DNA from: Propionispora vibrioides | Lineage (GTDB): Bacteria; Bacillota; Negativicutes; Propionisporales; Propionisporaceae | DNA length: 64,000 nt | Direction: 5' to 3' | Assembly (NCBI RefSeq): GCF_900110485.1 | Contig: NZ_FODY01000003.1 | Coordinates: 186,001 to 250,000, forward strand | Part shown: positions 1,063-12,910 of the stretch, in pieces | Position numbering within the stretch: the first letter of the stretch is position 1 | Layout: every line of letters begins with the position of its first letter | Notes under the pieces: model-generated | Databases searched by the model: none | What the model was told of the DNA's origin: nothing | Seen by the model: the letters and a program-made list of their open reading frames with translations, nothing else | Position numbers and translations under genes: made by a program

Positions 1063-2259
1063 TTATTGTCCGGACAGAATAGATCCGATTGAGTTCCGGT
1101 TGAGCCGTTTTTTTGTCTTTCCACTGCTCTCCTTGTCAATATGATTATGATCGAAGATATTAAAATTCTCGACAATAAAGCAATAACACAAACAGCCGAT
1201 GGCTACCAGACCGATGCTGATGATGAATTCCCATATGGAAGGGAAATAGGCACCGTCAGAGTAATGCAGCATGGAGGTAAATACGGTATTCATGCGGTTC
1301 AAAATAACGCCTCCCGCGGTCAGTACTCCGTAAGCGGTCAGGCCGGCCTTGGTGTTGCCCCATTTACTGAATACAATACCCAGTGGCACAAGAAGCCCCA
1401 GCACCATTTCCAGCAAAAACATATTGCCCTCAAAATTGCCGGCAAACATCAACCCGAACACGCCGCGGGACACCAGGTCATATACCTTCAGCAGCAGGTA
1501 CAGTGCCATCATGGCGCCGCTGATCCGTGCCAGACCGCTTAGAACCTCGGTTGAAACCTTATGGCCAAAGAAATTGCCTGCCAGCGCCGACTCGATAGTA
1601 ATCATGGCCGGTCCGACAAAGAAGGACGACATGAGGAAAAATACGGGCAAAAATTCCGTCCACCAAAGCGGATACACCTTAGTCGGCGCGATCAGGAATA
1701 ACGCTCCCAGCGACGACTGGTGCAGCGTCGGAAAAATGACGCCGATGATCATCAGAACAGGCAGTATCTTTTTAAATAGTCCATGAAGACGGACGCCGAT
1801 TTTTTCGGTAACAATCTCGCCGAACTCCAGGGTCTGGATGGTGGTATAGATGGAAACACACCAGAACACCTCAAATAATACCGAAGCATGCCCCCAGGAA
1901 ACAAAAGGCCGCCAGAAATTGAACCACTGACCGATGTCCAGAAACAACCCCAGCATAACCAGGATATAGCCCAGCAGTGACGTCAGTAAGGCGCCTCTGG
2001 CGATGGGATGATATTTGTCCCGATGCAGAATATGCACAATCAGCGCGGTGGAATAACCGCCGCCGGCCAGAGCCACGCCGGTCAGTACATCGAAAGCAAT
2101 CCAGAGGCCCCAGGGCCATTCATCGCTTAAATTAGTCAGCATACCAAAGCCGGTAATAAACCGGACAAGCATCGTCAAAATGCTCAAGCCGGCGATAGCC
2201 GCCAGAATCAGGCGAGTCGGTGTAATGGTAAACTTCCAGCCCAGTATCTCAATTTTCAT
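1063..2259 (-). CDS. NrfD/PsrC-type polytopic membrane subunit (quinone-interacting)
   Basis: 398 residues when started at the ATG at 2259, which has a GGAGG site 9 bases upstream. That start overlaps the end of the 4Fe-4S gene by 11 bases, indicating translational coupling. The protein is almost wholly hydrophobic, with about 9-10 membrane segments and short polar loops, as in the NrfD/PsrC/HybB superfamily. Members exchange electrons between a peripheral Fe-S subunit and the quinone pool. Placed after a Tat-type [FeFe] hydrogenase and a HybA-like subunit, it most likely links periplasmic H2 oxidation or evolution to menaquinone. Whether it moves protons cannot be judged from sequence. Confidence 0.85.
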   Translation of the reverse strand: MKIEILGWKFTITPTRLILAAIAGLSILTMLVRFITGFGMLTNLSDEWPWGLWIAFDVLTGVALAGGGYSTALIVHILHRDKYHPIARGALLTSLLGYILVMLGLFLDIGQWFNFWRPFVSWGHASVLFEVFWCVSIYTTIQTLEFGEIVTEKIGVRLHGLFKKILPVLMIIGVIFPTLHQSSLGALFLIAPTKVYPLWWTEFLPVFFLMSSFFVGPAMITIESALAGNFFGHKVSTEVLSGLARISGAMMALYLLLKVYDLVSRGVFGLMFAGNFEGNMFLLEMVLGLLVPLGIVFSKWGNTKAGLTAYGVLTAGGVILNRMNTVFTSMLHYSDGAYFPSIWEFIISIGLVAIGCLCYCFIVENFNIFDHNHIDKESSGKTKKRLNRNSIGSILSGQ

Positions 2260-3052
2260 GATGCTCATCCTCCATTGACCGGTTTTGTTGCTTCTCCTTG
2301 GCCAGCTCATTGCGCCGCCTGGTATAAAAAGATAATGCCGCCAGCAAAACGCCCCAACCAACGGCAATAAACGGCGTATGCCTCAGGAAGCGTTGCGTAT
2401 AGGTGGGAAGGGCCGTCATGCCTACAACCTTAAAGCCCAGTTCTTCAAAGGGAATATCCGAAATATACAGCCAGGATGTGCCGCCTACCTCGTCTTTTCC
2501 ATAGATTTTTTTTACATATTGATCATTATCTTTGATCTGCTGCTCCGCGCGGGCCACCAGTTTATCACGGTCATCCAGCTGCATGACCCCGGTCGGACAC
2601 ACCGACACACAGGCAGGGGCTTCCCCATTTTCCAGACGGGAAGAACACATCTGGCATTTTGTGATTTCCGGCGCCGCCTTGTGCCACTCGTATTTCGGCA
2701 CATCAAACGGACAGGCGAACATACAGTAGCGGCAGCCTACGCATAGATCGGGATAATAAACGATGGAGCCGTCGGGATTTTTTTGCAGTGCCCGGGAAAA
2801 ACAAGCCGAAACACAGGCCGGCTCCAGGCAGTGCATACACTGGCGTTTGACAAACCGCCAGACAGGTTCTCCTTTGCTGTTTTGCGTCTCACAGGTGCTG
2901 ACAATCGTCCAGTTCTTATCGTTTAATTTCGCCGCAGACCCTACGGTCGGCTGCTTGGTATCATATTCCAGCTTATTCCACATCTTACAAGCCACCACAC
3001 AACTGCCACAGCCGATGCACTTGGTAAGATCGGTTAACACGCCCTTCGACAT
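2249..3052 (-). CDS. HybA/DmsB-like four-cluster ferredoxin subunit with C-terminal membrane anchor
   Basis: 267 residues starting at ATG 3052, with a GGAGG site 8 bases upstream. Four cysteine clusters are visible in order: CIGCGSCVVAC (from residue ~12), CMHCLEPACVSAC, CVGCRYCMFAC and CQMC...CVSVC. This is the DmsB/NrfC/HybA fold that wires electrons between a catalytic and a membrane subunit. A hydrophobic stretch near residues 228-250 followed by TRRR looks like a single membrane anchor, as in HybA. There is no Tat signal of its own, so it probably travels out of the cell bound to the hydrogenase, whose signal is intact. Middle gene of the hydrogenase operon. Confidence 0.85.
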   Translation of the reverse strand: MSKGVLTDLTKCIGCGSCVVACKMWNKLEYDTKQPTVGSAAKLNDKNWTIVSTCETQNSKGEPVWRFVKRQCMHCLEPACVSACFSRALQKNPDGSIVYYPDLCVGCRYCMFACPFDVPKYEWHKAAPEITKCQMCSSRLENGEAPACVSVCPTGVMQLDDRDKLVARAEQQIKDNDQYVKKIYGKDEVGGTSWLYISDIPFEELGFKVVGMTALPTYTQRFLRHTPFIAVGWGVLLAALSFYTRRRNELAKEKQQNRSMEDEHHEN

Positions 3053-3108
3053 TTCAGGTACCTCCTGTTTTTAAACCGGCTTACAGGGAATCATCTATCA
3101 GCAATTCC

Positions 3109-4635
3109 CTATCGTTTTGCCGTCAATTGATCGCTGCGGTCAACAAACCGGGTATGCAGCAATGCTTCCGCCTCTTCACTCAACGGCTCTTTCAGCCACT
3201 CCTGATATACCTGACGGATTTCCTGGTTCTGATAACTGCTGCGTTTGGCCGGCAAAGCCGAGTCCAGTTTATATAAGTTGGCAATCCTGGCTTTGCGCAC
3301 TTCATCGGTCGGCGGCAACGAGGTCCGGGGTTGGCCGCCGCCCCCAATACAACCGCCGGGGCAGGCCATAAATTCGATAAACTGCCAGGGAGCCTTCTTC
3401 TCCCGTACTGCTGCCAACAATTCTCTAGCATTTTTCAGACCATGACACACGGCTACCCGGACAGTGCCAAGACCGGGAATATCGGCTGTCGCCTCTTTCA
3501 CTCCCTGCAGGCCGCGCACAGGGCTCCAGGTCAGCAGACTGTCAGGCGGGTCCTGAGCGGTGCTCAAATGATACGCTGTCCGCACAGCCGCCTCCGTTAC
3601 CCCGCCGGTGGCGCCAAAGATAATGCCGGCACCGCTGGTTTCTCCCAAAATAGAGTCATACTCGGCACTGTCCAGACTATTCATATCAATGCCTCGCTTT
3701 TTTAACAGCTGGGCCAGTTCCCGTGTAGTGATAACAATGTCCACATCACGCACCGCCGGCAGCTTGGCTTCGACGCCGGCAGCATTCATTTCCGGCCGCT
3801 GGCATTCAAACTTTTTCGCCGTACAGGGCATGACCGCCACCGACACAATATGGTCCGGACTAATCTGTTTCTTAGCTGCGTAATATGTCTTAGCCACCGC
3901 CCCAAACATCTGCTGCGGCGATTTACAGCTTGATAGATGAGGCATGAGATCAGGATAATAATATTCAACAAATTTCACCCAGCCGGGACAGCAGGAGGTA
4001 AATTGCGGCAGGCTGTGTTCCGGGTGCTTCACCCGTTCTAATAGCTCCGACGCTTCCTCCATAATGGTCAGGTCGGCGCCAAAACAGGTGTCCAGCACAG
4101 CATCAAAGCCAAGCGCTTTAAGCGCCGCCACCTGCTTGCCCTGGACAATGCTGCCCGGCGGCAGTCCGAATTCTTCCCCCAAAGATACACGGGTGGCCGG
4201 CGCTGTTTGCACCAGCACATGAACCGCAGGATTATCAAGCGCCGTCAGCACTTTCGCCGTATCCTGCCGCTCAGTGATGGCTCCGGTAGGACACCACAAA
4301 GTACACTGGCCGCAGTTTACGCACACAATTTCTTTTTTCACCGGAAGCTCATAATAGCCGTATACGCTCATTACATTGCGGCATACCTCCAGACACTGAC
4401 CGCACAGAATACATTTGGCATCATCCCGTTCAATGGATACATTGTTGCTATCTATCGGAATCCGTCCTTTAACCTGAACAGGCCAGTTGGCAGGAACATT
4501 ATACTGACTTGGCATCCAGCCTTTGCCTCCGGCCGATTCATTGCTGCAGCCGCTAACCGTTGCACCAACCCCCACGACCCCCGCTGTACCAAGAAGCTTA
4601 AAAAATCCTCTTCGTGATACTTTTTTCTGTTTCAT
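3109..4635 (-). CDS. Tat-exported [FeFe] hydrogenase, catalytic subunit
   Basis: 508 residues from ATG 4635 (GGAGG 5 bases upstream; an earlier in-frame start lacks a site). The N-terminus has a twin-arginine signal, SRRGFF at residues 7-12, a hydrophobic core, and VSGC at 27-30, which could be a lipobox. Two 4Fe-4S motifs follow (CILCGQCLEVC at 75-85, CVNCGQCTLWC at 105-115). All three H-cluster motifs are present: TSCCPGW (213-219), MPCTAKKFE (269-277) and MACPGGCIGGGGQP (423-436). The active site therefore appears complete. The extra C-terminal ~70 residues replace the usual small-subunit region. The reaction is H2 interconversion with protons outside the membrane, passing electrons to the 4Fe-4S and NrfD subunits. 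Tat-type [FeFe] enzymes are a minority; most are cytoplasmic. Confidence 0.92.
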   Translation of the reverse strand: MKQKKVSRRGFFKLLGTAGVVGVGATVSGCSNESAGGKGWMPSQYNVPANWPVQVKGRIPIDSNNVSIERDDAKCILCGQCLEVCRNVMSVYGYYELPVKKEIVCVNCGQCTLWCPTGAITERQDTAKVLTALDNPAVHVLVQTAPATRVSLGEEFGLPPGSIVQGKQVAALKALGFDAVLDTCFGADLTIMEEASELLERVKHPEHSLPQFTSCCPGWVKFVEYYYPDLMPHLSSCKSPQQMFGAVAKTYYAAKKQISPDHIVSVAVMPCTAKKFECQRPEMNAAGVEAKLPAVRDVDIVITTRELAQLLKKRGIDMNSLDSAEYDSILGETSGAGIIFGATGGVTEAAVRTAYHLSTAQDPPDSLLTWSPVRGLQGVKEATADIPGLGTVRVAVCHGLKNARELLAAVREKKAPWQFIEFMACPGGCIGGGGQPRTSLPPTDEVRKARIANLYKLDSALPAKRSSYQNQEIRQVYQEWLKEPLSEEAEALLHTRFVDRSDQLTAKR

Positions 4636-4675
4636 GTAAACCTCCACATTGTAATCGACCTTATTTAAATAAAAA

Positions 4676-4733
4676 GAACCCCCTAAAATAGCTGCTGATT
4701 TCTTTAAAAATCAACGCCTACTTTAGGGGGTTC
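4676..4733 (-). terminator. Terminator-like hairpin in the hydrogenase leader
   Basis: A 12-bp stem (4676-4687 with 4722-4733) encloses a second small stem and is followed on the minus strand by TTTTTATTT. It lies inside the predicted ~128-base leader of the hydrogenase mRNA, 40 bases before the start codon. It may therefore be an attenuator. Upstream GTGGGG in the same leader could pair with the CCCCCT arm and act as antiterminator. Alternatively it terminates the cupin gene upstream. Confidence 0.6.
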
Positions 4734-4769
4734 ACCGTAACTCTACCCCACTATTTATATTCTGCTTAT

Positions 4770-4812
4770 AGCATAATGCATAATCGGTTTTTTGTCTAGT
4801 GAATTTATTCAC
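4770..4812 (-). promoter_or_regulatory. Hydrogenase operon promoter with Crp/Fnr-like (or Rex-like) palindrome
   Basis: On the minus strand TAGACA (4793-4798) and TATGCT (4770-4775) are 17 bp apart. Directly upstream is the palindrome GTGAATTTATTCAC (4799-4812). It fits GTGA-N6-TCAC of Crp/Fnr-family sites and is centred about 42 bases upstream of the expected start, the class II activator position. It also fits the Rex core GTGAA-N4-TTCAC. Confidence 0.55.
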
Positions 4813-10977: not shown

Positions 10978-11391
10978 ATGGATTTTCGCCTGAAAGCATT
11001 CCTGACAACGCTTATTGTTTCTTTGGTTATGTTTGCCTGGCTGATTTATGTTTCTCTAACCAATGAGCAAATGAAGCCCATACCGGTTGCGGCACAGCAG
11101 GGCAAACTGGTTTTTCAGCGCAAGGCCTGTATCGAATGTCACACGGTATTGGGCAATGGCGGTTATTATGGCGGCGATCTTACCAAAGTATATGAAAAGC
11201 TTGGCAGCGATGCACTGAAGGAATTTCTAACCCACCCGCCACTCATTAGCGGAGCCAAACAAAAACGGCATGAACGTCTGAACGAAGCGGAAACCAATGC
11301 TATGATCGCTTACTTAGAATTCCTTGATTCCATTAATACCACAAATTGGCCGCCGCATCCGCTTTATGAAGCCAAGCCACAAGCCAGGTAA
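10978..11391 (+). CDS. norC: NorC-like membrane-anchored cytochrome c subunit of nitric oxide reductase
   Basis: 137 residues with an uncleaved N-terminal membrane helix (about residues 7-28) and one heme c site, CIECH (residues ~46-50), inside ACIECHTVLGNGGYYGGDL, a stretch typical of NorC. A downstream Met for axial ligation cannot be assigned with confidence. It passes electrons to NorB for reduction of two NO to N2O outside the membrane. AGGAGAG lies 9 bases before the ATG. The next gene, norB, starts 22 bases downstream, so the pair is one operon. Confidence 0.88.
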   Translation: MDFRLKAFLTTLIVSLVMFAWLIYVSLTNEQMKPIPVAAQQGKLVFQRKACIECHTVLGNGGYYGGDLTKVYEKLGSDALKEFLTHPPLISGAKQKRHERLNEAETNAMIAYLEFLDSINTTNWPPHPLYEAKPQAR

Positions 11392-11413
11392 TTCAGCAAA
11401 GGAGCCAGCCGAC

Positions 11414-12910
11414 TTGTTCCGATCTCAGCATCTAAGTTATAAATATGCCTTAATTGCGTATCTGCTTTTTGGCCTGCAAGGACTGATCGCTACCGGCGGT
11501 GCGATACAATTACTCTTTCCCGACGTGAATTCTCCCATCTCCTTTGCCGCCGGCCGGGCCTTTCACTTAAACATCAGTATCTATTGGCCGCTGCTCGGCA
11601 TGATGGGAGCCATTTATTTTTTCTTTAGCCAGGAGGCAGAACGGGAATTTTATAGTCTTAAGCTGATTACCGTTAATTTCTGGCTGTTGACAACAACCAT
11701 AGGCTTGACTTTAGGCTGGCTGCTATTAGGCTTTACGGAAGGCCGGGAATATCTCGAGACCAACTGGCTCTTTAAATTAGCGACCTTCGCTTCCACGCTG
11801 CTCCTGAGCTTTAATTTGCTCCGTACCTATCAGGCTTCCACTATGCCCAAGAGCCGGGCCACACTGATCAGTATCGTAGCCGGCAGTATTACTCTGGTTA
11901 TTTTTTACCTGCCTAATATTATGTCTTATTCCCATCCGACTACCGATGAAGTTGCCAAGTTCTTGGTGGTTCACTTATGGGAAGAAATGTCGTTGGAACT
12001 GCTTGGTACCGGCATTCTGGCAGCATTGGTGATTCGTATGATCGGCGTGGAGCGGCGGGCAGTGGAAACGGCTATTTATTTAGATCTTATCTTTGCCGCT
12101 TTAGCCGGAATACTGGCAACAGGACATCATTATTATTGGATTGGTGTGCCGGCTTTTTGGCTTTGGATCGGCGGCATTTTTAGTGCGATGCAGGTTCTGC
12201 CATCCATTATCTTGTTATATACAACCCTAAAATCAACTAACCTTAAGACTTTTTCCTGTCGCTCCGACCGTGATAAAATCGTGGCTGCCCTAATCGGCTG
12301 CAGCATATTTTATCATATTTTCGGAGCTGCCTTTTTAGGCTTTCTTATGGCGTATCCGCCGCTCAACCGGTTTATCCACGGAACGTATATTACCTCAGCC
12401 CATTCACACTTTGCCTTATTCGGCGTATTCGGGTTCCTGGTGTTAGCCTTGTGTTTTTATATGCTGTTTACCGAAATAAGCCTTGCAAAAAAACTATATC
12501 CCTGGTGCTGGGTTGCCCTTCTCTCACTAAATGCCGGCCTACTGACCATGGGAACAGGACTTTTACTTGCCGGCGGCTTACAAGTCTACTGTTGGTGGGT
12601 AATGGGCTTGAGCATTGACGAGACCAATGAATTGATCAGGCCCTATTTGCTTATCCGGGCAGCGGGCGGCGCTGTCTATTCCGCCGGCAGTCTGTTGCTG
12701 ACATTTGTTGTTGTCAAAAGCCTATGGCCTAAAATCAAGATGTTGTTTCAAAGCGAAGGGCATCTGTCGAACATTGCCTGTGATGATTTAAACCAGCTCG
12801 ACGGATTACTCGATGATTTAGTTCAAAAGGGAAAAGAAGCGGAGCAGGTACTGCAAAAAATTCAAAACCTTAGTCCAACCATCTTAACCCGCTCCAAGGA
12901 GAATAAGTAA
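11414..12910 (+). CDS. norB: Nitric oxide reductase large subunit NorB
   Basis: 498 residues from TTG 11414, chosen because AAAGGAG lies 9 bases upstream; an ATG at 11366 overlaps norC but has no site. Twelve membrane helices of the heme-copper oxidase type. The ligand set is complete in this numbering: His51 (FHLNISIYW) and His332 for heme b, His330 for heme b3, and His187, His238 and His239 for the FeB site. Glu191 and Glu195 in HLWEEMSLE match the NorB-specific glutamates that replace the oxidase Tyr/His feature. This supports NO reductase rather than cbb3 oxidase. The ~30-residue soluble tail is predicted coiled coil. Confidence 0.9.
   Translation: MFRSQHLSYKYALIAYLLFGLQGLIATGGAIQLLFPDVNSPISFAAGRAFHLNISIYWPLLGMMGAIYFFFSQEAEREFYSLKLITVNFWLLTTTIGLTLGWLLLGFTEGREYLETNWLFKLATFASTLLLSFNLLRTYQASTMPKSRATLISIVAGSITLVIFYLPNIMSYSHPTTDEVAKFLVVHLWEEMSLELLGTGILAALVIRMIGVERRAVETAIYLDLIFAALAGILATGHHYYWIGVPAFWLWIGGIFSAMQVLPSIILLYTTLKSTNLKTFSCRSDRDKIVAALIGCSIFYHIFGAAFLGFLMAYPPLNRFIHGTYITSAHSHFALFGVFGFLVLALCFYMLFTEISLAKKLYPWCWVALLSLNAGLLTMGTGLLLAGGLQVYCWWVMGLSIDETNELIRPYLLIRAAGGAVYSAGSLLLTFVVVKSLWPKIKMLFQSEGHLSNIACDDLNQLDGLLDDLVQKGKEAEQVLQKIQNLSPTILTRSKENK

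Follow-up and report, generated by a model that had tools for sequence, protein, structure and literature searches.

The operon at positions 1063-4635 on the minus strand of the window (the whole 64,000-nucleotide stretch of Propionispora vibrioides DNA analysed here) raises the question of on which side of the membrane its [FeFe] hydrogenase meets hydrogen, and to which carrier the electrons are passed. Judged from its sequence features, the operon quite probably encodes an outward-facing, membrane-anchored H2:menaquinone oxidoreductase.

Gene organization

Three close-set genes run from 4635 to 1063 in the order hydA, a HybA/HmcB-like ferredoxin gene and a HybB/HmcC-like NrfD gene; the preliminary description had the coordinates right and left out the strand. 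The gene hydA (3109..4635, minus, with the start ATG at 4635 and the stop at 3109) encodes a 508 aa group A [FeFe] hydrogenase catalytic subunit, identified by profile matches and alignment. The ferredoxin gene (2249..3052, minus) encodes 267 aa with four [4Fe-4S] clusters (16 Cys), and the third gene (1063..2259, minus) a 398 aa NrfD/HybB/HmcC-like integral membrane quinone subunit. The gap between hydA and the ferredoxin gene is 56 nt, the NrfD and HybA-like genes overlap by 11 nt, and a ribosome-binding GGAGG precedes each of the three genes (at ~4641-4645 for hydA). Both partner genes adjoin a Tat-signalled HydA in 44 of 49 loci (48 found by pattern, plus L059; a few are duplicated between collections), with varying flanking genes, and because this order recurs so often the three-gene set is far beyond chance. 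The DUF6803 gene downstream (463-963) was considered as part of the module and rejected, being next to the operon in just one of two congeners and not elsewhere. Farther along the window (10978-12910, plus strand), NorC- and NorB-like genes for nitric oxide reductase were recognized by eye from their translations.

Catalytic subunit

HydA matches the Pfam families Fe_hyd_lg_C (1.3e-97) and Fe_hyd_SSU (1.1e-17), the latter as a small-subunit domain fused at the C-terminus (residues 444-500), and scores 481 bits against TIGR02512 for group A [FeFe] hydrogenases, above the cut-off of 406. The H-cluster motifs TSCCPGW, MPCTAKKFE and EFMACPGGCIGGGGQP (MACPGGCIGGGGQP) are all present, so the set of motifs is as complete as had been described, with every ligand found. 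In an alignment with 24 relatives, C215, C271, C425 and C429 of the H-cluster are invariant and C216 is nearly so, the sole exception being the HydA of locus L040, where Ser replaces one H-cluster Cys; the cysteines of the two [4Fe-4S] motifs are invariant in the same relatives. Also invariant are C215, E194, S235, E197 and R201, which we take, by CpI numbering, to form the proton path. The closest solved structures are those of the bifurcating HydA1 enzymes, C. pasteurianum hydrogenase 1 and the Desulfovibrio periplasmic enzyme.

The first 30 residues of HydA (4546..4635, minus) form a Tat signal peptide by sequence and alignment, running from SRRGFF to VSGC with Cys30 as a candidate lipobox cysteine. 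The Tat signal previously assigned to the catalytic subunit is thus borne out, the twin Arg being kept in 41 of 42 distinct exported HydA sequences, and R8, G29 and C30 are invariant in the 24 relatives. The lipobox, earlier given as possible, is plausible: its Cys is invariant, although the strict lipobox pattern fits just 23 of the 42 distinct sequences, and Cys30 is a candidate site of lipidation. One exported member (L042, 5644-7191) has TRLNF where the RR motif is expected. After the signal, most exported members have a linker GxGWxPxQY, which is absent from all 65 other HydA sequences in the comparison; in the AlphaFold model of HydA, this N-terminal linker with its conserved GWxPxQY is disordered and of low confidence.

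Ferredoxin and NrfD subunits

The 16 cluster cysteines of the ferredoxin subunit, for four clusters, are invariant in 20 sequences. The subunit scores 206.6 bits against the NCBIfam equivalog for E. coli HybA, below the cut-off of 263, and 267.3 bits against HmcB, below that of 420. A C-terminal transmembrane helix (residues 226-244; 2321..2377, minus) was picked up by a hydropathy scan with a borderline score of 1.5. The window copy has no signal peptide, and none of the relatives compared has a Tat signal on this subunit; therefore, it must travel with HydA.

The NrfD subunit matches PF03916 (1.7e-12, 48.1 bits, cut-off 25.8), and falls below the NCBIfam equivalog cut-offs for E. coli HybB (277.2 of 450 bits) and HmcC (255.5 of 550 bits). 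Its predicted structure (pLDDT 75) has ten long helices, and a fold search with this model retrieved NrfD-type subunits of alternative complex III, with E-values down to 1e-9 and TMq values of 0.64-0.69 for the best four matches, while phmmer against solved structures gave no match. Profiles, gene order and this fold match agree with the earlier assignment of a HybA-like subunit and an NrfD after the catalytic gene.

Distribution and phylogeny

Tat-signalled HydA is carried by Negativicutes, Desulfosporosinus, Peptococcaceae, Gracilibacteraceae and one Holophagaceae metagenome-assembled genome, the Desulfosporosinus orthologues being 59-60% identical. The earlier view that [FeFe] hydrogenases are seldom exported goes too far, considering that 14 of 40 related genomes carry the Tat enzyme and that exported forms have been described in Desulfotomaculum, Syntrophomonas, Sporomusa and Desulfovibrio. 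The comparison with cytoplasmic [FeFe] enzymes proposed in the preliminary description was made in a tree of 84 rows, where the Tat members cluster together, separately from the cytoplasmic group A enzymes (SH-aLRT 92), and the exported group may have a single origin. Two Tat-less branches are nested within it, and some branches are long, leaving the details uncertain.

Five loci, from gut Peptococcaceae or Clostridia, have Tat-HydA with no partner genes nearby, which counts against the reading of the enzyme as an H2:menaquinone oxidoreductase. These solo genes (L066, 7531-9536; L067, L069, L070 and L061, the set comprising gut Peptococcaceae and an uncultured Clostridia bin) adjoin desulfoferrodoxin, or lie near rubrerythrin in L061, and lack the ferredoxin and NrfD genes; this setting suggests a role in redox stress. 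Two Tat-less members of the clade were also observed: one whose C-terminus carries fused rubredoxin and rubrerythrin domains (L145, 866-2914), resembling HydR of Clostridium perfringens, and one with no partner genes (L146, 7788-9242), from a lineage lacking the menaquinone marker.

Menaquinone genes and host genome

The link to menaquinone was examined in the 40 related genomes, counting that of the window itself; the Tat enzyme occurs in 14 of them, in one case split over two contig pieces. A gene of the MqnA/MqnD family is found in 14 of 14 genomes with the enzyme vs 13 of 26 without it (Fisher p = 0.0009 by genome and p = 0.006 by family), a correlation that is partly phylogenetic. Family f4, which lacks MqnA/D, carries a Tat-less, partner-less form. 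TatC is near universal among the related genomes and does not discriminate. Together with the conserved Tat signal and the conserved ferredoxin and NrfD partners, the co-occurrence of menaquinone genes makes the entry of H2 electrons into the quinone pool, as previously suggested, the best reading, and it renders the quinone link of the NrfD form directly testable.

The window's genome, from the Pelosinus class, contains HydG, HydF, TatC and a gene of the MqnA/D family; the neighbours of TatC include UbiD and UbiA genes. Its other HydA types include two group B1 enzymes and one shorter relative. No [NiFe] hydrogenase was found in this genome, the lone family match being below the cut-off; therefore, the [FeFe] enzymes must do the usual uptake job of [NiFe] hydrogenases, and the operon puts an outward, quinone-linked [FeFe] hydrogenase into an anaerobe of this kind.

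The same genome encodes another exported [FeFe] hydrogenase (L120, 8285-10585, contig C4), consisting of a Desulfovibrio-type HydA, a Tat-signalled small subunit and a cytochrome b. It lies between raiA and secA, both named by eye from their translations. This site holds only the cytochrome b type in the window's genome, only the NrfD type in Pelosinus and both exported enzymes in tandem in one relative; the two types appear to have shared the raiA-secA site in relatives.

Proposed mechanism and alternatives

According to the proposed mechanism, HydA would fold and gain its H-cluster in the cytoplasm, with HydF and HydG encoded in the genome, and would then be exported through the Tat system, taking along the ferredoxin subunit, which lacks a signal peptide. 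A lipid on Cys30 and the C-terminal helix of the ferredoxin would probably anchor the complex at the membrane. Hydrogen would be split at the H-cluster, outside the membrane, and the electrons would pass through the two [4Fe-4S] clusters of HydA and the four of the ferredoxin to the quinone site of the haem-free NrfD subunit, where menaquinone would be reduced, possibly with protons from the cytoplasm, in a step to which NrfD may or may not add charge translocation. The outward orientation put forward earlier remains the best reading in view of the conserved Tat signal and the conserved partners. Biochemistry of the NrfD form was not found in the open-access literature and may exist elsewhere.

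The enzyme most likely works mainly in H2 uptake and is probably reversible. From H2 to menaquinone the drop is about 340 mV at standard values, strongly downhill, and for this reason H2 evolution from menaquinol needs an input of energy. It is the potential by itself that makes uptake the likelier direction, and relatives allow reversal. The same complex in the same place could have the opposite main job: with the proton-motive force as the energy source, menaquinol would be oxidized and H2 released outside, which would give the cell a way to dispose of electrons during syntrophic or fermentative growth. Reversibility is a property of E. coli Hyd-2, which has in HybA and HybB the closest well-characterized counterparts of the two partner subunits. 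The exported, quinone-linked Hyd2 of S. wolfei is induced ~20-fold in syntrophic butyrate growth and has been modelled as running in reverse (PMC5101538); however, it is of the cytochrome b type and not NrfD. Set against the steep potential drop, this reversed main role is considered unlikely.

Far less probable is that the exported HydA feeds cytochromes outside the cytoplasm, or external acceptors, while NrfD serves just as an anchor. The periplasmic [FeFe] hydrogenase of Desulfovibrio has cytochromes as partners, and the NorC/NorB-like genes in the window, recognized by eye, encode a c-type cytochrome pair; however, the conserved operon lacks any cytochrome gene, and a four-cluster ferredoxin with NrfD is the standard wiring to quinone. 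A defence against oxygen or peroxide with H2 as the reductant, for which the rubrerythrin fusion and the solo Tat members of the clade could speak, as could the coupling of H2 to H2O2 reduction by HydR of Clostridium perfringens (PMC11926857), is the least probable of all, given that the window operon has NrfD in place of a desulfoferrodoxin or rubrerythrin partner and that the redox-stress variants have no adjoining ferredoxin and NrfD genes.

Leader of hydA

Upstream of hydA, a terminator-like hairpin followed by a T-rich tract (4676..4733, minus) lies ~35 nt before the start codon (fold z -5.9) and is shared with two congeners. It is preceded by a 24 nt block, GGGGTAGAGTTACGGTGAACCCCC (4726..4749, minus), which in the three species is invariant bar two positions and is conserved in the two congeners while its surroundings diverge. 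Farther upstream is a sigma-70-like promoter, TAGACA-17-TATGCT (4770..4798, minus), assigned by consensus with 9 of 12 positions matching. The block might pair differently and give a short stem that competes with the terminator. The element was not found elsewhere in its own genome or outside the genus in a search of 200 genomes of the class (197 of them others), and no known RNA family reached its gathering score in the leader. The block and hairpin (4667-4749, minus), conserved in the genus only, are a candidate attenuator. Tentatively, the leader (~4667-4770, minus) might be an undescribed transcription attenuator controlling the hydrogenase operon; a block with two ways of pairing, between a promoter and a strong terminator that needs read-through, hints at this possibility as a lead drawn from three sequences.

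Comparison with known systems

As a probable H2:menaquinone oxidoreductase, the window enzyme differs from several known hydrogenases in its partners. Relative to the bifurcating HydA1 enzymes, its partners are not flavoproteins: the flavoprotein HydB and the HydC of electron-bifurcating HydABC are lacking, and the operon adds only ferredoxin and NrfD. Nor does it have the separate Tat-bearing small subunit of the Desulfovibrio-type periplasmic HydAB, the small subunit being fused here. With E. coli hydrogenase-2 (HybOABC) it shares a HybA ferredoxin with a C-terminal helix and an NrfD-type HybB; however, the catalytic part of hydrogenase-2 is [NiFe], and the window subunits are below the HybA and HybB equivalog cut-offs. 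The two partner subunits resemble HmcB and HmcC of the Desulfovibrio Hmc complex, although the window operon has no multihaem cytochrome HmcA and Hmc itself has no hydrogenase subunit.

Exported, quinone-linked enzymes with in-gel hydrogenase activity have been described as S. wolfei Hyd2 and S. ovata HydA2B2C2 (PMC5101538, PMC3582634, PMC9430772). Unlike the window enzyme, both have a b-type cytochrome as the membrane subunit, and HydA2B2C2 carries its Tat signal on a distinct small subunit rather than on HydA. The second exported enzyme of the window's genome (L120) belongs to this type, with its Tat signal on a separate small subunit.

The three-gene module itself is already known. Tat-signalled, membrane-associated [FeFe] hydrogenases of three genes were reported from Desulfotomaculum genomes in 2012-2014 (Desru_3431-3433 and 0447-0445; Desgi_0926-0928; DesniDRAFT_1068-1070 and 2001-2003; Desca_0940-0938 and 2453-2455), and one of the three papers states that the membrane subunit has ten helices (PMC3569383, PMC4148979, PMC4149029). 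The window operon has the same composition, namely three genes with Tat on the catalytic subunit, an Fe-S subunit and a ten-helix membrane subunit, and the Desulfotomaculum enzymes are likewise predicted to lie outside. They differ in coming from another class of Bacillota and in that the papers describe their membrane subunit as an orthologue of cytochrome b; the window and Desulfotomaculum proteins are presumed orthologues by way of the Desulfosporosinus sequences that were compared.
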